Shown piece by piece: positions 7,031 through 15,444 of a DNA stretch of 64,000 nucleotides (positions within the stretch are counted from its first letter, which is position 1; each line of letters begins with the position of its first letter). The stretch spans positions 124,001 through 188,000 of the forward strand of contig NZ_SELO01000002.1 of the NCBI RefSeq assembly GCF_004146235.1. Direction: 5' to 3'. The notes under the pieces were generated by a model that was not told where the DNA came from, made no database searches, and was given only the letters and a program-made list of their open reading frames with translations. This DNA comes from Tropicimonas sp. IMCC6043. Its GTDB lineage: Bacteria; Pseudomonadota; Alphaproteobacteria; Rhodobacterales; Rhodobacteraceae. Both the position numbers and the translations under genes were made by a program.

Positions 7031-9391
7031 TCATGGCGTGGCGCCCTGCCCGGCCATTTCGGCGGAAGCGCAGATCTGCTCGAGCGCCGCGCAGGCGTCG
7101 GACACGCGCAACCGAAGCTCCGATATCTCGACCGCGCCCGGCGGCAGGTCGGTCGATCGTGCCTGTGCTTCGATCTCCCGGGCCAGCCGCTCCACGCCGG
7201 CGATGCCGAGCAGGCCGGAAGCGCCGGCGAGCGAATGCGCGGCGTTGGCGACAGTATCCCGATCAAGCCTGTCGAGACCGGCCCGAATCGCCTCGACATG
7301 ACGCGGCGCGCTTTCGAGGTAGGTCCGGATGACCCGGCAACCGCGTTCCCGCCCGAGCTGAGCGACATGGTGCTCGGCGACGCTCCATTCGGCCGGCGTT
7401 TCGTGGGGGCGTGGCGGTGGCGGTACCACCGGTCGCTCTCCCGTGACTCGCGTAATCTCCTGAGCGAGACTCGCCGCGTCATAAGGTTTGGCGAGAAGCC
7501 CGTCGGGGCGGGCGCGACGCGTGGCCTCAGACCGCATATCCTCGGCCGAGGCGGTCACCAGAATGACCGGGATACCGGGATTGACCCCTCCATCACCGCC
7601 ACGGATCCGTTCCAGAAGGTCGAGCCCGCTGATCTCAGGCATGCGGTTATCGGTGAGCACGAGGTCGAAGCGCTCCCTGGCGAGCATGTCCAGGGCAGCG
7701 GTGGCGGCGGCGGCGCTCTGCGTCGCATGGCCGAGCCGCGCCAGGACGCCCTCGGCCACCATCCGGCTCACGGCGTCGTCGTCGACCACGAGTATCCGCA
7801 ACGGCGCACCCCGCGCCGGTTCGACGGGAGCGACAGCGCCGGCGCGGGCGGGCGTCAGCGGCAGGATGAAGAAGAAGACGCTCCCGCCACTGGCCCCTGG
7901 CCGGCAGCCGATCTCGCCCGCCATCCGCTCGACGATCTTGCGGCAGATCGAAAGGCCGAGGCCGAGACCGCCGCGGGCGCACTTTCCTTGTGAAAACGGA
8001 TCGAAGAGCCGGCCCGTCGGCCCTTCCGGAAGGCCGATCCCGGTGTCTCGCACCTCGAAACGGATGCGGGCTTCTGCTGCATCCGACGCCGCGTCGGTTT
8101 CCGGCAGCACCCGGATCTGAACCGTGCCGGAGTCGGTGAACTTGATCGCGTTATGTGTGAGGTTGAGCAACACCTGCCGGATCATAGAGGCGTCGCCGTT
8201 GAGCCGCGCCGGCAGGTCCCGGGCAATTTCGGTATCGAGCTCCAGCGCCTTCTCACCGGCCAGCGGCTCGGCCACCATCAGCACCTGCCGGACCAATCCC
8301 GCCAGATCGAAATCCTCCGCCACCGGAGGTCGTGCGCCAACCTCGGCCTGGCTGAAGTCGAGGATATCGCCGACCACCCCGGCAAGCAGCTCGGCCGAGG
8401 AGATGATACCGTCGACAATGTGGCGCTGGTCGTCTTCGAGGGGCGTATCGCGCAGCAACCGGGCGAGGCCGAGAGCACCGGCGATCGGCGTGCGGATCTC
8501 GTGGCTCATGGCCGCGAGGAAGGTCGACTTGGCGTGATCGGCCGCGCGCGCCTGGCTGAGCGCGCGCTTGTATTCGGAGACATCGTTGAGGATGATCACG
8601 GTGCCGTCGAACTTGCGGCTGACATCGAGCATCCGTTGCAGCTTGACGTTGAATTCCCGTGTTCCAGCCAGCGTCTCGATCACCATGTCGCTGCCCGCAG
8701 TGGCGCATTTCCGAAGGATCTCGGCGACCTGCGCGGCCAGCAGCGGACTGCGCAGTGCACCGTAGTAGGATGCCCCAGGCGCCACCTCGCCGCAGAACAG
8801 GCGATGGGCGGCGTCGTTGAGATGCACCGGGCCACCCTCTGCGTCGAGCAGAATGACCGGTTCGTGGATCGTCTCGAAGATCGTGAGATACTTGTTCTTC
8901 TCGTTGACGAGCCGTCTGTTCTTGGATTGCAGGTCGCGCAGCCGCCGTTCGTCGGGCACCGCGACCCATTCCTTGCACAGAACGATCTCGAGCCGGTCGA
9001 AAAAGTCGAAAATGTAGTAGCGCAATCGACGCGCATCCTCGGGCGCGACGGTATTCTCGTCGATCAGGTCGAGATAGGCGCGGCGATAATACTTGAGCAG
9101 GCCGATGAAATCGGCGAGCCGGATTCCGCGAGCGCGATGCTGCTCGGCCTGCCTGACCCCGAAGGCGACGATCGAGTCGCGCGCCTGCCCAAAGCCTTCG
9201 GCGGCGGCATCACCTGCATCGACCGCGGCGATGGCTTCGAGGATCGGCCCCGAGAGCCCGCAGATCGAGGCGCGCCAGGCTTCGCGCAGGGTGGAGGTGT
9301 TCTGCGCGAACCCCTCGATGACGGCGTAGTGGACGACGCGGTCGACGAGCCAGTCCTCGTTCTCGACGATCAGGGCTTCGAGCGTCTTCAT
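7031..9391 (-). CDS. soluble hybrid histidine kinase of the tor locus (PAS-HisKA-HATPase-REC-Hpt)
   Basis: The start is the ATG at 9391, which has an AGGAGG upstream and overlaps the stop of the preceding cytochrome-like gene by 4 bp; this gives 786 residues. The order is a helical N-terminal domain (1-150), a PAS domain (about 165-280), HisKA with His297 in MSHEIRTP, an HATPase (about 400-510, GLGLGLSI), a receiver (about 540-660, LTDNRMPE) and an Hpt domain (about 700-786, AHSLAGASGLLG). No membrane segment or periplasmic loop is visible, unlike E. coli TorS. It probably phosphorylates the divergent TorR-like regulator through an H-D-H-D relay. What it senses is unknown. Confidence 0.85.
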   Translation of the reverse strand: MKTLEALIVENEDWLVDRVVHYAVIEGFAQNTSTLREAWRASICGLSGPILEAIAAVDAGDAAAEGFGQARDSIVAFGVRQAEQHRARGIRLADFIGLLKYYRRAYLDLIDENTVAPEDARRLRYYIFDFFDRLEIVLCKEWVAVPDERRLRDLQSKNRRLVNEKNKYLTIFETIHEPVILLDAEGGPVHLNDAAHRLFCGEVAPGASYYGALRSPLLAAQVAEILRKCATAGSDMVIETLAGTREFNVKLQRMLDVSRKFDGTVIILNDVSEYKRALSQARAADHAKSTFLAAMSHEIRTPIAGALGLARLLRDTPLEDDQRHIVDGIISSAELLAGVVGDILDFSQAEVGARPPVAEDFDLAGLVRQVLMVAEPLAGEKALELDTEIARDLPARLNGDASMIRQVLLNLTHNAIKFTDSGTVQIRVLPETDAASDAAEARIRFEVRDTGIGLPEGPTGRLFDPFSQGKCARGGLGLGLSICRKIVERMAGEIGCRPGASGGSVFFFILPLTPARAGAVAPVEPARGAPLRILVVDDDAVSRMVAEGVLARLGHATQSAAAATAALDMLARERFDLVLTDNRMPEISGLDLLERIRGGDGGVNPGIPVILVTASAEDMRSEATRRARPDGLLAKPYDAASLAQEITRVTGERPVVPPPPRPHETPAEWSVAEHHVAQLGRERGCRVIRTYLESAPRHVEAIRAGLDRLDRDTVANAAHSLAGASGLLGIAGVERLAREIEAQARSTDLPPGAVEISELRLRVSDACAALEQICASAEMAGQGATP

Positions 9392-10050
9392 GGGCGTGCC
9401 TCCTCGATGTGGATCGTATCGCTGGCGTGGCGCTGGAGAAAGGCGAGAATGAGCGCCTGGCTCTCCTCGGGAAGGCCGGTGCGCGGCCCCATGACCTTCA
9501 GATAACTGCGCCACTGGTTTGCGGTGTAGTTCTCCGGAACGCGGCGCTCATGGCAGGCCGTGCAACTGGTGGCAAAGAGCGCCCAGGCCGCCTCCCAGAT
9601 CGGCGTGCGGCTGGGGCGGAGCGCCGCTTCGGCCACCCAGCCCTCGAGCCGCATTTCGACCCAGTCGGTCCCGGTGTCGGGATCCGTCTCGCGTGCGACG
9701 GGCACGAGCCGGCCCGTCTGCGCCCGCGGCAAGCGGGCGACGATGACCTGTTTGCCCGGCCAGGCAAAAAGGACCCGCTCGGCGCCAGGGCGGGCCCAAC
9801 CGGTCACGGCGACTTGCCGGTACGCGCCATCTGACGCCAGGGTTTCGACCGCCGCGGCGATGCCGAGTTCGGCTATGGTGACGCTTCTGGTGTCGACCGT
9901 CGCAAGGAGCGGCGCGGGCTCTGCCAGGAAGACCGGATCGGCGGTAGCGGGCAGGACAGGGATCAGGCTGAAGACCAGCCCCCACAGCGCAGATACCCAG
10001 CCGCGCAGGCGCGCGGCCGGGCCGTGAGTGGAGTTCAGTTCGCCGGACAT
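9388..10050 (-). CDS. secreted mono-heme protein resembling the TorC C-terminal domain
   Basis: The ATG at 10050 gives 220 residues with a Sec-type signal peptide ending near residue 38. The mature part has an SH3-like region (about 80-145) and one heme site, CTACH (163-167). It parallels the C-terminal third of the TorC encoded upstream. Both share an EGWV-x-A-x-L block, the heme site, ANQW and a closing HASDT. The NapC/NirT membrane anchor and the first four hemes are absent, so this looks like a free copy of the TorC terminal domain. It follows torA and is translationally coupled to the kinase gene. Electron transfer or signalling are both possible roles. Confidence 0.75.
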   Translation of the reverse strand: MSGELNSTHGPAARLRGWVSALWGLVFSLIPVLPATADPVFLAEPAPLLATVDTRSVTIAELGIAAAVETLASDGAYRQVAVTGWARPGAERVLFAWPGKQVIVARLPRAQTGRLVPVARETDPDTGTDWVEMRLEGWVAEAALRPSRTPIWEAAWALFATSCTACHERRVPENYTANQWRSYLKVMGPRTGLPEESQALILAFLQRHASDTIHIEEARP

Positions 10051-10067
10051 CCCAAGTCCTTGCGGGC

Positions 10068-10086
10068 GGGGCCGTCGCGCGGCCCC
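10068..10086. terminator. GC hairpin between torA and the mono-heme gene
   Basis: A perfect 7-bp stem GGGGCCG/CGGCCCC (10068-10074 with 10080-10086) with a 5-nt loop lies in the 49-bp gap after torA. On the torA strand no U-tract follows it, so it is more likely an mRNA-stabilising or attenuating hairpin than a full terminator. Confidence 0.4.
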
Positions 10087-10099
10087 GGCCCTTTTCGCG

Positions 10100-12565
10100 T
10101 CAGCCCTCGGCGGGGGCCGAGAAGACATCGGGTGCGGGGGCGTCGCCCTCGTATTTCTCGATATCCGCGAGCGCCGTGTGGCCGCAGTTGCCCTGGGCGA
10201 GGCTCGAGGTGCCGATGCCCACGGTCAGGTTGTTGACATCTCCATAGGTGTCGAGAGCGCCGATCTCGCCGCCCGGGGCCGGGTCATACCAGCCGCCCTC
10301 CGCGACGCGGATCACGTTCGGTCGGATCGCGTCGGTCACCATCGCCCCGGCGAGAATCTGGCCGCGGTCGTTGAAGATCCGCACGATGTCGCCATCGACG
10401 ATCCCCTTCGCCTCGGCATCCACCGGGTTGATCATGCAGGGCTCGCGGCCCGAGATCGCGTAGGTCTCGCGCAGCTTGGTGCCGCAGAGTTGCGAGTGCA
10501 GCCGCGAGGACGGGTGCGCGGTGTCGACGTGGAACGGGTATTTCGCCCCTTCCCCGCCAAGCCGCTCGACCGGCTCCATCCATGTGGGATGCGGCGGGCA
10601 GTCGTCGTAGCCCATCTTCTCGATGTTCTTCGAGTAGATCTCGATCAGGCCCGTGGGCGTGCCGAGCGGCTCGAGCAGCGGATCGTCGCGGAAGTCGCCG
10701 TAGCGGACGAACTGCCGGTTCTCCTCGGGGATCTCGAACTCGAGAATACCGGCCTCCCAGAACGCATCGAAGGCAGGCACCTCGATCCCGCGCGCCGGCG
10801 CCTGTTCGGCCGCCGCATCGTAGAAACCCTTGATCCAGGCCATCTCGTCCTTGCCCTCGGTGAAGGCGTCGCGCGCGCCGAGCCGCTCGCAGATATCCGC
10901 GAAGATGTCGAAATCGTTGCGGGCCTCGAACATCGGGTCGATGACCTTCTTCATCGCGACGATCGCGCGGGCCGAGTAGTCGCCGACATTCTCGATGTCG
11001 TTGCGCTCGTAAGCCGAGGTCGCCGGCAGGACGATATCCGCGAAGCGGGCCGTTGCCGTCCACTGGAAGTCATGCACGACGACGGTTTCAAGCTTCTGCC
11101 AGGCCTCGACCATCTGGTTCCGGTCCTGGTGATGCGAGAACGGGTTGCCGCCGACCCAGTAGGCCATCTTCACGTCCGGGAACTTCTGGGTCTTGCCGTT
11201 GAAGTTGAAGTCCTTGCCCGGATTGAGGATCATCTCGACCACGCGGGAGACCGGGATCGACGCCGCGCCGGCATCGGTCATCCAGGCCGCGCCTTCCACC
11301 GCACCGCCGCCGTCGCCGATGCCCGGCAGGACGATCGAGTTGGCGGAGGGCGCGCCGCCATTGGCGTAGTGGTAGGAGAGCCCGAAGCCGCCGCCCGGCA
11401 GTCCGATCTGGCCCAGCATGGAGGCGAGCGTGACCAGCATCCAGTGCGATTGTTCGCCGTGGTGCTGGCGCTGGATCGACCAGCCGGAGCTGAGCATCGT
11501 CCGGTTCGACTGGAAGAGCCGCGCCAGGTCGCGGATCTGGTCGGCGGGCACCTCGCAGATCTCGGAGGCCCATTCGGCCGTCTTCGGCGTGCCGTCGCTC
11601 TCACCGGTCAGATAGGGCAGGAAATCCTCGAAGCCGGAAGTGTATTCGTCGAGGAAGTCGGAATCATGCAGATCCTCTTCATAGAGCGTGTGCGCAATGC
11701 CTAGCATCAGCGCGACGTCGGTATGCGGCCGGATCGGCACCCATTCCGCGTCAAAGAACTGTGCCGTCTCGTTGCGCCACGGGTCGATGACGATGACCTT
11801 CTTCCCGGTGTCCTTGAACGCCTGGAGATAGGGGTAGTTGTCGTGGTCAGCCACGGTCCAGGCGATCTGGTTGGTCCGCACCGGGTCCGCGGCCCAGAAC
11901 ACCAGTACATCGGTGTTCTCGACGACCACCGGCCAGACGGTCTGTTGCTCGTAGACCTCGAGCGTGCCCATGACATGCGGCATAATGATCTGGCTGGCGG
12001 CGGTCGAGTAGTCGCCCGAGGCGTTCACGAAGGCGCCGTTGAGACCGAGGTTCATCATCCGCCGCATCAGGTTCTGGCAATTGTGCAGTTTGCCCGAGCT
12101 CTTCCAGCCATAGGAGCCGCCGAAGATGCCCGTCGGCCCATAGGTCTCGGACACGCGCTTCAATTCGCTGGCGACGAGGTCGAGCGCCTCATCCCAGCTC
12201 ACGCGGACGAAATCGCCCGCACCGCGGGTCTCGGGGCTCGCCCCTGCGCCGCCTTCGAGGAAGGCGCGGCGGACCATCGGATACTTGATCCGCGAGGGCG
12301 ACATCACCGAATCCATGATGCCCGGGAGTTGATGGCTCGGGGCGGGGTCGCCCTCCCAGGGCCGGATCTCGGTCCAGGTGCCGCCGTCGACCTTGGCGTA
12401 GAAGACACCCCAGTGCGAGCCGGTAATCACCTCGCCGTCCATGCCCGCGGCGTGCGCTGCGCCCGCCCTGAGCCAGGCCGGTGCCAGCACCCCCAACGCG
12501 CCGACCGCCGTCGCGCCCTTCAGCACGCTTCTTCTTGAAATCTGGGTGAAGTCTTTTCCGGACAT
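10100..12565 (-). CDS. torA: periplasmic TMAO/DMSO reductase, molybdopterin catalytic subunit
   Basis: The 821-residue protein matches the length of TorA/DorA enzymes, which reduce TMAO or DMSO in the periplasm with a bis-MGD molybdenum cofactor. It starts with a Tat signal (SRRSVLKG, residues 11-18). The Mo ligand is Ser187 in GDYSTAASQ, and the Tyr152/Trp154 pair in GGSYGWKSSG marks this subfamily. There is no N-terminal iron-sulfur cysteine motif, as expected. A GGAGGG ribosome site precedes the ATG. The gene lies downstream of torC and torD but is separated by 177 bp carrying TGTAAAC boxes, so it may also have its own promoter. It could equally be named dorA. Confidence 0.95.
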   Translation of the reverse strand: MSGKDFTQISRRSVLKGATAVGALGVLAPAWLRAGAAHAAGMDGEVITGSHWGVFYAKVDGGTWTEIRPWEGDPAPSHQLPGIMDSVMSPSRIKYPMVRRAFLEGGAGASPETRGAGDFVRVSWDEALDLVASELKRVSETYGPTGIFGGSYGWKSSGKLHNCQNLMRRMMNLGLNGAFVNASGDYSTAASQIIMPHVMGTLEVYEQQTVWPVVVENTDVLVFWAADPVRTNQIAWTVADHDNYPYLQAFKDTGKKVIVIDPWRNETAQFFDAEWVPIRPHTDVALMLGIAHTLYEEDLHDSDFLDEYTSGFEDFLPYLTGESDGTPKTAEWASEICEVPADQIRDLARLFQSNRTMLSSGWSIQRQHHGEQSHWMLVTLASMLGQIGLPGGGFGLSYHYANGGAPSANSIVLPGIGDGGGAVEGAAWMTDAGAASIPVSRVVEMILNPGKDFNFNGKTQKFPDVKMAYWVGGNPFSHHQDRNQMVEAWQKLETVVVHDFQWTATARFADIVLPATSAYERNDIENVGDYSARAIVAMKKVIDPMFEARNDFDIFADICERLGARDAFTEGKDEMAWIKGFYDAAAEQAPARGIEVPAFDAFWEAGILEFEIPEENRQFVRYGDFRDDPLLEPLGTPTGLIEIYSKNIEKMGYDDCPPHPTWMEPVERLGGEGAKYPFHVDTAHPSSRLHSQLCGTKLRETYAISGREPCMINPVDAEAKGIVDGDIVRIFNDRGQILAGAMVTDAIRPNVIRVAEGGWYDPAPGGEIGALDTYGDVNNLTVGIGTSSLAQGNCGHTALADIEKYEGDAPAPDVFSAPAEG

Positions 12566-12675
12566 TGTCCGCCCTCCGCTGATGGCATTGCACGCGAGTC
12601 ACGAGCCCTGGCGCCTTGGGGGCTTTCCACCCCGCGAACGCTGGCCGTGCGCATGGGCGGAGCATAGATTCGCGG

Positions 12676-12736
12676 TGTAAACAGGGTTCTGGAGGGCGGT
12701 GAACCGGCTGTAAAATTATGTAAACGAGGTGTAAAC
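12676..12736. promoter_or_regulatory. phased TGTAAAC heptamer array upstream of torA
   Basis: TGTAAAC-like heptamers occur on the plus strand at 12676 (TGTAAAC), 12698 (GGTGAAC), 12709 (TGTAAAA), 12719 (TGTAAAC) and 12730 (TGTAAAC), spaced 22, 11, 10 and 11 bp apart. The array ends 6 bp from the torD stop codon and lies 111-171 bp upstream of the torA ATG. In torA sense the boxes read like CTGTTTACAC, close to the CTGTTCATAT boxes bound by E. coli TorR. Binding by the local TorR-like protein is an inference. Confidence 0.65.
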
Positions 12737-12742
12737 GGGACC

Positions 12743-13357
12743 TCAGGCGGCGACGGCCAGCTGCGTCTCCACGGCGCGCAGCCAGGCCAACGTGGCCGGG
12801 CCGAGCTCGCGATAAAGCGGGATGGGTGCAAGTCGGGCACAAAGCGCGGCAAGCGTCGGCACCCAAGTCAGCAAATGGTCGCGCAGGTAGCTCGCTTCGG
12901 TCAGCCCCGCGTCTCCGCGCCCGCCGGCAAGCTCGGCGAGGATGTTGAGTTCGATGCCGATGTGGTCCAGGGGCTCGCGGAAACCCGGCGGCGGCGACAT
13001 GTCGAGTTGCGAAAGAACCACTGCGCTTTGCCGCGCCGGTTCCTGCATCAGCAGGCCGCGCTCGCTCAGATAGGCCGAGGCGAAGAGCGGCACGGCGCGC
13101 GGCCCGCCTGTCAGAAAGAGCTTGCCATAGGCGGCCGCGAGATCGAGCCGGAGCGAGTCCGGATCCTGGTCGGTGCAAACAGTCTCGCGCAGCGCAGCGA
13201 CGAGCGGCGCCAGAGACGGCAGGGCCGCGAGTTGGTCGAGCAGCGCGGCGCCGTCCGCGCCACGGTAGAGATCGATCGCCTCCCGGTCGACCTCCCCGAG
13301 AAAGAGCCCCGCAAGCCAGCGGTCGATCTGCTGGCGATCCTCTGTCGATACCGTCAT
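12743..13357 (-). CDS. torD: TorD/DmsD-family maturation chaperone
   Basis: The ATG at 13357 sits 10 bp after the torC stop codon and gives 204 residues, the normal TorD size. The sequence is almost all helical, with the family's GEVDREAIDLYRG, YGKLFLTGG and EPLDHIGIELNIL blocks. TorD proteins bind the Tat signal and apo-form of TorA so that the molybdenum cofactor is inserted before export. Its position between torC and torA is the usual tor/dor order. Confidence 0.9.
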   Translation of the reverse strand: MTVSTEDRQQIDRWLAGLFLGEVDREAIDLYRGADGAALLDQLAALPSLAPLVAALRETVCTDQDPDSLRLDLAAAYGKLFLTGGPRAVPLFASAYLSERGLLMQEPARQSAVVLSQLDMSPPPGFREPLDHIGIELNILAELAGGRGDAGLTEASYLRDHLLTWVPTLAALCARLAPIPLYRELGPATLAWLRAVETQLAVAA

Positions 13358-13367
13358 TCCCGGCTCC

Positions 13368-14543
13368 TCAATGCGTACCGCCCGCCCCGCCCGTGTCACT
13401 GGCGTGCATCTGCAAGTATTTCTGAAGGAAGCGATACTGCTCCTTGTCGAGCGTGATGAAACGTTCCATCGCCTTCATGGTGCCGATCCACTGGTTGGCG
13501 AGGAAATGATCGGCCGCCGGCGCCGAGTGGCACGTGCCACAACTGGCGTTGTTCATCTCTTCGCCATAGGCCCAGAGCGCTTCGACATCGTCGATGAGAT
13601 CGGCCTGGTCGACCCAGCCCTCGATACTGACTTCGTGCCAGACGAGATCGGTATCGGGATCGGTCATGGTGGAATGCTGCTCCACCCGGCCGGTCTCAGA
13701 TTTCTTGACCGTGGCGGTAAAGATCCGTTGGCCGGCGAATTCATAGATCACGCGGTCCACTCCGTCCTGCTGCCAGCCATCGACACGGACTTTCAGAAGG
13801 TCTCCCTGGCGCTCGAGCACCTTCAGATGCGTCGCCCCGAGGATCTGACCGATCTCGTTGTCACCGGATTTCGCGTCATCAGCGCTGGCGTAGTAGGACT
13901 TGGTCTGGATCGTGTAGAGATCATCCGCCTTCGCCCCCTGTTCCGCGGCCTCGGCCACAAGGTCCTCGAACATTTTCTTGTAGCCCTGCGACATGTCGGG
14001 AAGCTTGTGGGCGACACCCTTGTGGCAGTCGATGCAGGTGTCGCCATTGGCGAAGCCCTCCTGCATCCTCTTGGACGCTTCCGGCGTCTGCAACTCGAAA
14101 TTCATCGCATGTTCACTGTGGCAGGACCGGCATTCGCGGGAATCGCTCGCTTCCATCTCCGCCCAGACACGCTCGGCCATCTCCAGCCGGTGCGCCTCGA
14201 ATTTCTCCGGCGTGTCGATCTTGCCGGTCAGCGAACTGTAGAGTTCGCCGATCGCGTAGTAGTGGTCGATTACCATCGGAACGAAAGGCTCGGGCACGTG
14301 GCAATCCGCGCAGCCTGCCTGTACGCCAGAGGCATTCGCGTAGTGTACGCTCTCCTGGTACTCAACATAGACGGTGTCGCGCAACTCGTGGCAGGAAACG
14401 CAGAATTCCGTCGTTTCCATGGACTTGAGCGTGGTATGCGCGCCGAAGAGCCCGACCGCGCCGATGACCGCGCCAACGAACAGCAGGAAACCGCTGGACA
14501 ATACGCCCGACGGGCTTCGAAGCCAGGTCCAGAGTCGTCTCAT
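13368..14543 (-). CDS. torC: membrane-anchored pentaheme cytochrome c, electron donor to TorA
   Basis: The 391-residue TorC/DorC protein has one N-terminal membrane anchor (about 13-35) and five heme sites: CVSCH (48-52), CADCH (78-82), CRSCH (138-142), CIDCH (170-174) and CGTCH (335-339). The first four form the NapC/NirT domain, which takes electrons from quinol. The fifth lies in the C-terminal domain, which passes electrons to TorA and, in E. coli, takes part in autoregulation. It is first in the torCDA unit. Its start lies 81 bp from the nearest of the phased heptamers shared with the divergent regulator gene. Confidence 0.95.
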   Translation of the reverse strand: MRRLWTWLRSPSGVLSSGFLLFVGAVIGAVGLFGAHTTLKSMETTEFCVSCHELRDTVYVEYQESVHYANASGVQAGCADCHVPEPFVPMVIDHYYAIGELYSSLTGKIDTPEKFEAHRLEMAERVWAEMEASDSRECRSCHSEHAMNFELQTPEASKRMQEGFANGDTCIDCHKGVAHKLPDMSQGYKKMFEDLVAEAAEQGAKADDLYTIQTKSYYASADDAKSGDNEIGQILGATHLKVLERQGDLLKVRVDGWQQDGVDRVIYEFAGQRIFTATVKKSETGRVEQHSTMTDPDTDLVWHEVSIEGWVDQADLIDDVEALWAYGEEMNNASCGTCHSAPAADHFLANQWIGTMKAMERFITLDKEQYRFLQKYLQMHASDTGGAGGTH

Positions 14544-14623
14544 CGGTGTGCCCCTTTCGAACAGAATCCGGCCGGGCGCCGATCAACGGCCGCGCCCGGG
14601 TCGGCCAAGGATTAGCGCGGCGC

Positions 14624-14684
14624 TGTAAATCAGCTGTTGAGGGGATATGAATGGCCTGTAGAAAATTGTAAACGCGATGTGAAC
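14624..14684. promoter_or_regulatory. phased heptamer array between torC and torR
   Basis: Six heptamers on the plus strand run at 14624 (TGTAAAT), 14635 (TGTTGAG), 14646 (TATGAAT), 14657 (TGTAGAA), 14667 (TGTAAAC) and 14678 (TGTGAAC). Spacings are 11, 11, 11, 10 and 11 bp. The last three keep the same 10/11 rhythm as the torA array. The array ends 16 bp before the torR ATG and 81-141 bp upstream of torC, so a bound regulator could activate torC and limit its own gene. Confidence 0.65.
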
Positions 14685-14700: not shown

Positions 14701-15444
14701 ATGGAGGCCCCGAAGCGTGTGCTGATCGTCGAGGACGACCCGACGAGCCTCGAGCTGATGGCGGCCTATTTCGAGGAGGAAGGGTTCCGCGTCCTGCGCG
14801 CCAGCGATGGTGACGAGATGGATATCGCGCTTCGGAAGGCCAATGTCGACTTGCTCTGCCTCGACCTTAAGCTGCCCGGGCGCGACGGGTTGAGCCTCTT
14901 GCGCGAGCTCCGGCGCACATCGGACCTGCCGGTGATCGTGGTCAGCGCCAAGACCGAAGACATCGACCGCATCGTTGCGCTCGAGATCGGCGCCGACGAC
15001 TACCTCGACAAGCCCTATAACCCGCGCGAGTTACTGGCCCGCGCCAACAACATCCTGCGCCGGATTGGGCGGTCTCCGCGCACGGCGAAAGTCGAGGTGG
15101 AGGAACGGATCCGCTTCCAGGGATGGGTGATCGACATTGCCGGGAGGCGGCTCATCGCGCCGGACGGCACGGATGTCCACCTGACCCGCGGCGAGTTCGA
15201 ACTTCTGCTGGCGCTGGCGACGCATCGCGGGCGGGTGATGCAGCGCGAGCAATTGCTCGACGCGCTGAGCGGCCGCAACCGCGACCCGTTCGACCGTACG
15301 GTGGACGTGCTGATCGGCCGGCTACGAAAAAAGATCGAGCGCGACCCCAAGAACCCCGACAGGATCATCACCGTTCACGGGATCGGCTATGTCTTTCTGG
15401 ACGGCGGGTCCGCGCAGGAGGAAGCCGCGGCATCGGCCGGCTGA
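14701..15444 (+). CDS. torR: OmpR-family response regulator of the tor locus
   Basis: The 247-residue protein has a receiver domain (acidic pair VEDD at 10-13, phosphoacceptor Asp55 in CLDLKLPG, Lys in DYLDKPY) and a C-terminal winged helix (about 140-235, RTVDVLIGRLRKKIE). It is divergent from torC, and its promoter region holds the phased heptamer array. It is the only response regulator in the locus, so it is the likely phosphate acceptor from the hybrid kinase at 7031-9391. OmpR-type proteins bind direct repeats about one helical turn apart, which fits the array. A TAGGAGAG ribosome site precedes the ATG. Confidence 0.88.
   Translation: MEAPKRVLIVEDDPTSLELMAAYFEEEGFRVLRASDGDEMDIALRKANVDLLCLDLKLPGRDGLSLLRELRRTSDLPVIVVSAKTEDIDRIVALEIGADDYLDKPYNPRELLARANNILRRIGRSPRTAKVEVEERIRFQGWVIDIAGRRLIAPDGTDVHLTRGEFELLLALATHRGRVMQREQLLDALSGRNRDPFDRTVDVLIGRLRKKIERDPKNPDRIITVHGIGYVFLDGGSAQEEAAASAG

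Follow-up and report, generated by a model that had tools for sequence, protein, structure and literature searches.

The tor locus of Tropicimonas sp. IMCC6043 holds two rows of short boxes related to TGTAAAC, and the question is which regulator they serve and which genes it would control through them. The window, meaning the whole stretch of 64,000 nucleotides analysed, has torC, torD, torA, a torE-like gene and a torS-like kinase gene in this order on the minus strand, and torR diverges from torC. Array 1 occupies the torC/torR intergenic region and array 2 lies between torD and torA (Table 1). From the letters alone, an earlier note had proposed that one TorR-like protein binds both arrays and governs torC, torA and its own gene.

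Table 1. Genes, boxes and candidate promoter elements of the tor locus, in window positions
Feature	Position	Strand	Sequence or basis
torR, OmpR-family response regulator	14701..15444	+	NCBIfam profile match
torC, pentahaem cytochrome	13368..14543	-	461 bits (cut-off 478); five CXXCH
torD, chaperone	12743..13399	-	109 bits (cut-off 132)
torA, TMAO-reductase-type molybdoenzyme	10100..12565	-	PRK15102, 1036 bits (cut-off 909)
torE-like, free-standing TorC-C-terminal-like monohaem cytochrome, one CXXCH	9388..10128	-	start within frame provisional
torS-like hybrid histidine kinase, without clear membrane span	7031..9391	-	profile matches, hydropathy
Array 1 box 0, promoter-proximal	14624..14630	-	TGTAAAT; ATTTACA in torC sense
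Doubtful sixth position, array 1	14635..14641	-	TGTTGAG; 4/10 versus E. coli decamer
Array 1 box +22	14646..14652	-	TATGAAT; torC-sense decamer CCATTCATAT, 8/10 versus E. coli
Array 1 box +33	14657..14663	-	TGTAGAA
Array 1 box +43	14667..14673	-	TGTAAAC; GTTTACA in torC sense
Array 1 box +54	14678..14684	-	TGTGAAC; torC-sense decamer CTGTTCACAT, 9/10 versus E. coli
Array 2 box 0, promoter-proximal	12676..12682	-	TGTAAAC; GTTTACA in torA sense
Array 2 box +22	12698..12704	-	GGTGAAC
Array 2 box +33	12709..12715	-	TGTAAAA
Array 2 box +43	12719..12725	-	TGTAAAC
Array 2 box +54	12730..12736	-	TGTAAAC
Candidate torC -10 element, 9 bp past proximal box	14609..14614	-	TAATCC; inferred
Candidate torA -10 element, 9 bp past proximal box	12661..12666	-	TATGCT; inferred

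Both arrays place their boxes at offsets of 0, 22, 33, 43 and 54 (array 1, 14624–14684; array 2, 12676–12736), and the corresponding boxes stand a constant 1948 bp apart at all five positions. Thus, the final 11/10/11 rhythm pointed out before is indeed shared. The heptamers of array 2 and their steps of 22, 11, 10 and 11 bp are also as claimed. For array 1, described before as boxes in steps of 11, 11, 11, 10 and 11 bp, the spacing stands but the sixth box at 14635 is weak, so five boxes are credible. This position has no counterpart in array 2, where 12687 reads TTCTGGA, and none in E. coli. The distance of 16 nt from the end of array 1 to the torR ATG was read correctly in the earlier note, and AGGAG, a likely ribosome-binding site, stands in between.

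Compared with the E. coli TorR decamer CTGTTCATAT, the box at 14678 matches at 9/10 and that at 14646 at 8/10, while the eight other credible boxes match unevenly at 4–7/10. The likeness to the E. coli sites suggested before is uneven across the boxes. A match of at least 8/10 is no rarity, being reached at 17 places in the window, and 9/10 is reached only at 14678. Because the decamer match is poor in eight of the ten boxes, the word identity rests on a looser core. The part shared with the E. coli sites, as far as the sequences tell, is the GTTYAYA core together with the geometry.

The arrays as observed are real. Exact TGTAAAC occurs four times in the window, always inside the arrays, versus an expected mean of 0.54, and none of 100 shuffles reached four. 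The five-box layout score is 33/35 for array 2 and 31/35 for array 1, versus 21 for the runner-up in the window. The maximum in 100 dinucleotide-preserving shuffles, used as the layout control, was 24. When up to 3 mismatches are allowed, the three-box pattern is met at two places in the 5.46-Mb genome, both of them these arrays, and its backwards control at none.

The two-box pattern with 0 or 1 mismatch is likewise found in the genome only at the two arrays. With 3 mismatches allowed it is uninformative, giving 38 places, fewer than the 97 of the backwards control. Elsewhere in the genome, at G000:C58:41110–41127 (L003), the two boxes are matched with 2 mismatches. Being AT-rich within a region of about 65% G+C, the boxes might be put down to chance or to compositional A-tract curvature with no regulator involved. 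To this we give practically no probability, in view of the shuffle controls, the whole-genome count and the conservation of the words.

By TorR, the closest relatives are Tropicimonas and Aliiruegeria. In the stretches fetched, nine distinct relatives have torC beside a divergent torR. They are the Tropicimonas and Aliiruegeria records L038–L043, two of which come from uncultured isolates, and L023, L024 and L026 of the same family, with G007 and L039 counted as one relative. Loss of both word and spacing in the intergenic regions of relatives, which the earlier note held to speak against its proposal, is not what we found, as array 1 is kept at 0, 22, 33, 43 and 54 in all nine. Single boxes are sometimes weak, for instance box +22 of L024 with a match of 4/7. 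The torC–torR gap varies from 118 to 272 bp among the nine despite the fixed offsets.

Array 2 is present at the same offsets in 6/6 of the closest relatives (L038–L043), and no array was seen before torA in L023, L024 and L026, where wider stretches were scanned too. Among the window and the six close relatives, the boxes are on average 96% identical pairwise in array 1 and 95% in array 2. The bases between boxes are 69% and 75% identical, respectively. Identity falls to 45% and 61% in the 30 promoter-side bases and to 47% and 34% in the 25 bases at the far end.

Two stretches beside these boxes are also kept. GCTGTT at 14633–14638, next to box 0 of array 1, is retained in 7/7 close genomes though it makes a poor box. 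TTC(C/T)GG(A/C)(A/G)GG at 12683–12697, in the gap that separates box 0 of array 2 from box +22, is retained in 7/7 genomes compared.

The origin of array 2 as a segmental copy of array 1 was considered and rejected. The between-box identity of the two arrays is 37% within genomes and 33% over all pairs, close to the 28–34% of the flanks, so no trace of copying is left, and independent assembly and an old copy look the same. Confinement of array 2 to the Tropicimonas–Aliiruegeria group was also rejected, as arrays stand before torA in G724 and G504, which belong to other families of the class.

In E. coli K-12, the tor boxes are at 0, 22, 43 and 53, three of them exact CTGTTCATAT and one matching at 7/10. 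Compared with these, the distal box of the window arrays is 1 bp further out, the GTTTACA words are looser, and one extra box stands at +33, where E. coli matches at 3/7 only and no box is seen. The same decamer and a weak box 3 are given for Salmonella in a part of PMC9239176. The layout 0, 22, 33, 43, 54 recurs in 20 of 29 arrays compared, all 20 alphaproteobacterial, and the agreement comes partly from selection because several of the 29 were picked by layout.

The Azospirillum array has three boxes (0, 22, 33) and the torC array of G724 fits 0, 23, 33, 42, 53. Seven arrays are from outside the class, namely those of E. coli, Photobacterium and five further genomes of the phylum. They follow 0, 22, 43, 53 in six cases and 0, 21, 42, 52 in one. 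A joint 1-bp shift of all three G724 arrays, as a case of co-variation within a genome, was looked for and discarded, since only the torC array is shorter.

The -10 was not a criterion in picking the 29 arrays. Nevertheless, 28 of them have a -10-like TA at 9 bp beyond the proximal heptamer, L026 being the exception. In the first set, TA at 9 bp was counted in 25/26, every other offset in at most 5, and 5000 shuffles gave a maximum of 8 at any offset. The E. coli element at the 9-bp position is TAAGAT, and a passage of PMC10845959 places the E. coli torC -10 site here. With the ruler shared by the distant E. coli, geometry seems to be more strongly constrained than sequence.

As an alternative, array 2 may not be a working torA promoter but a relic or just a decoy for TorR, with torA transcribed by read-through from torC. 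This would fit with torC, torD and torA running in one direction and with the lack of an array before torA in L023, L024 and L026. It fits badly with the 95% identity of the array 2 boxes in seven genomes versus 34% in the 25 bases beyond, and with the TA 9 bp past array 2 in 7/7 (the window and the six relatives).

Moreover, L038, L040, L041 and L042 have no TorD match between torC and torA, yet they keep array 2, and G724 and G504 too have an array before torA. The read-through alternative appears improbable to us, and array 2 would rather be a further TorR promoter, serving torA.

The window regulator scores 229 bits for the TorR equivalog NF008034 of NCBIfam, which is below the cut-off of 275, yet the best of 97 models. 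Its identity is 39% with E. coli TorR and 47–49% with three Rhizobium regulators outside tor loci. The recognition-helix stretch, however, reads RTVDVLI in both the window and E. coli TorR versus R(S/T)IDAQ(I/V) in the three Rhizobium proteins. The helix word DVL is found in 18/18 regulators from tor loci or beside arrays versus 1/19 others (L072), the latter including L063, whose helix was not found by the pattern used.

In a tree of 37 proteins, 16/16 tor-locus TorRs fall on one side of one branch with moderate support of 79/75 (80% of 200 bootstrap trees). This group does not include the two regulators next to the G130 and G125-C13 arrays. Seventy-four loci (L044–L117) were brought in by TorR similarity and have no TorA, TorC or TorD match. 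No array scoring 27 or more was found in them, and scores of 25–26 were reached at 29 places versus 27 for the reversed-core control.

Thirty-one torC-type loci were scanned for the array layout. The score is at least 26 in five of them (L124, L129, L132, L137 and L138). L142 scores 23 with its proximal box misplaced by the scan, and fits 0, 21, 42, 52. The other 25 score at most 22, L125 among them having only 90 bases upstream of torC.

The torC-type loci with a TorR match in the fetched stretch, L124 and L129, both have an array, and TorR is about 1.5 kb upstream of torC at L191, the locus of L142. The layouts of L132, L137 and L138 are E. coli-like, and no TorR was found within about 4 kb at their loci (L188, L189 and L190). 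This genome and the sister genome G007 have three further torC-type loci that lack torR (L036, L035 and L037), and no array was seen in them. A second torD-torA-torC set was seen in the same genome at 4013–8399 of L186 (contig C90 of G000), with no array and no torR match nearby.

Recognition of 7+4 bp repeats is common to OmpR-family members according to parts of PMC4415409 and PMC4832192, and putative ArcA motifs may overlap the E. coli TorR sites according to a part of PMC10845959. In line with this, the 11-bp repeats could be bound by another regulator of the family, e.g. an ArcA- or PhoB-like one, or by several, with TorR not the main one. This is very unlikely in our estimate, as the array is beside torR in 9/9 relatives with the torC–torR pair, the three-box pattern is confined in this genome to the tor locus, and L036, L035 and L037 lack torR and array alike.

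The conservation of array 1 in all nine relatives, the E. coli ruler and the E. coli-type recognition helix together argue for TorR. It is therefore the earlier proposal that we favor, with both arrays being, with high probability, TorR operators in the control of torC(D), torA and torR. In comparison with torR-torCAD of E. coli, they would very probably represent a TorR operator that carries one more box and is present in two complete copies.

The two systems are alike in the divergent torR and torC, the head-to-tail boxes (0, 22, 43, 53/54), the proximal box 9 bp from the -10 and the DVL helix word of TorR. They differ in the second complete array before torA, in the gene order C-D-A with the kinase behind, in the lack of a clear membrane span in the window kinase and in that no close TorT was found.

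The Pho boxes are another relative in architecture. PhoB binds 7+4 bp direct repeats head to tail and contacts sigma-70 (in a part of PMC4415409). The window arrays resemble them in the 7+4 bp direct repeats, the proposed OmpR-family regulator and the head-to-tail order. In contrast, the E. coli Pho word is CTGTCAT, and two repeats make up a unit there instead of five on a 54-bp ruler.

Mechanistically, TorR~P is expected to bind head to tail at 0, 22, 33, 43 and 54, near one face of the DNA. Box 0 is 9 bp before a weak -10, near the place of the -35, and no good -35 was seen by eye at the arrays, which points to activation by contact with RNA polymerase. Most likely, TorR at box 0 would recruit the polymerase in a PhoB-like way. 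Array 1 would in this manner activate torC(D).

Occupancy of array 1 would probably repress torR. With just 16 bp to the ATG, the torR promoter should overlap array 1 or lie behind it, so the autoregulation is likely repression. Autoactivation is common in two-component systems as stated in a part of PMC2820520, and occupancy of array 1 might activate torR instead. We find this rather unlikely with such a short distance, which also holds the likely ribosome-binding site, between the last box and the ATG. Hence, repression is the sign that we prefer for torR.

Array 2 may also drive the genes beyond torA. The torE-like frame overlaps the end of torA, and its stop overlaps the kinase ATG (ATGA). 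Because of these overlaps, array 2 probably serves torA, the torE-like gene and torS together, which would put the kinase in its own regulon. Induction would then raise the kinase in a feedback. As a separate observation, the torE-like protein is 28% identical to the window TorC and 51% to its L038 counterpart in alignment.

The kinase scores 336 bits with TIGR02956, below the cut-off of 676. Its top 19-residue hydropathy mean is 1.57 versus 2.24 for the TorC anchor and 2.10 for Azospirillum TorS, and it does not show the membrane-spanning form with a periplasmic sensor domain. Its N-terminal region of about 280 residues has no Pfam match at E 0.001, where E. coli TorS has the periplasmic sensor. 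The genome has seven distant TorT-like matches, the best with 23% identity and E 1.7e-11, none on the contig of the window (C79), and no close TorT was found in it.

In related bacteria, the DMSO/TMAO reductase of Rhodobacter is regulated by the TorR-like DorR/DmsR. Neither DorR/DmsR binding sites nor an earlier report of such arrays in alphaproteobacteria was found in the literature searched, with subscription journals mostly outside it. The arrays offer a testable grammar of TorR promoters, as to which positions matter and to the 9-bp link to the -10. The TorR targets in alphaproteobacteria would become predictable from spacing. In addition, a regulator with a second complete operator in its own gene cluster would alter the balance among cytochrome, enzyme and kinase.

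More broadly, the TorR operator may be a promoter module both rigid and portable. Its 61-bp box ruler and the 9-bp distance to the -10 would be more strictly maintained between gamma- and alphaproteobacteria than the words, and the module would be placed whole before further genes. Its second copy in the clade of the window would put the kinase gene under TorR via torA-torE-torS, and a third copy, in G724, stands before an alpha/beta-hydrolase gene followed by torS. We hold this generalization to be evenly balanced between holding and failing.

A search with the three-box pattern through the family gave 32 places in 27/394 genomes. The backwards control also had matches, so most places with 3 mismatches are not read as sites. 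Of the nine places with 0–2 mismatches, seven are in tor loci or beside a torS-like gene (two in G000, two in G007 and one each in G125, G250 and G130). The other two, in G200 and G366, have no tor-type match in the 3 kb examined and may be chance.

Three arrays are found in G724, one each ahead of torC, torA and the alpha/beta-hydrolase gene preceding torS, and G504 has one, before torA. The third full array of G724, ahead of the hydrolase gene and then torS, was seen at 12841–13803 of L182, and the hydrolase gene is possibly a new TorR target. In G130, three phased boxes have a torS-like kinase gene on one side and the gene of a cytochrome with a TorC-like tail on the other.

Such phased boxes before torS-like kinase genes were seen at 8038–8065 of L177 (G130) and 7652–7679 of L178 (G125), with 1 and 3 mismatches, respectively. 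Neither place belongs to a torCDA cluster like that of the window. The regulators next to them share only 33–36% identity with the window TorR and do not join its group, but DVL is kept in them.
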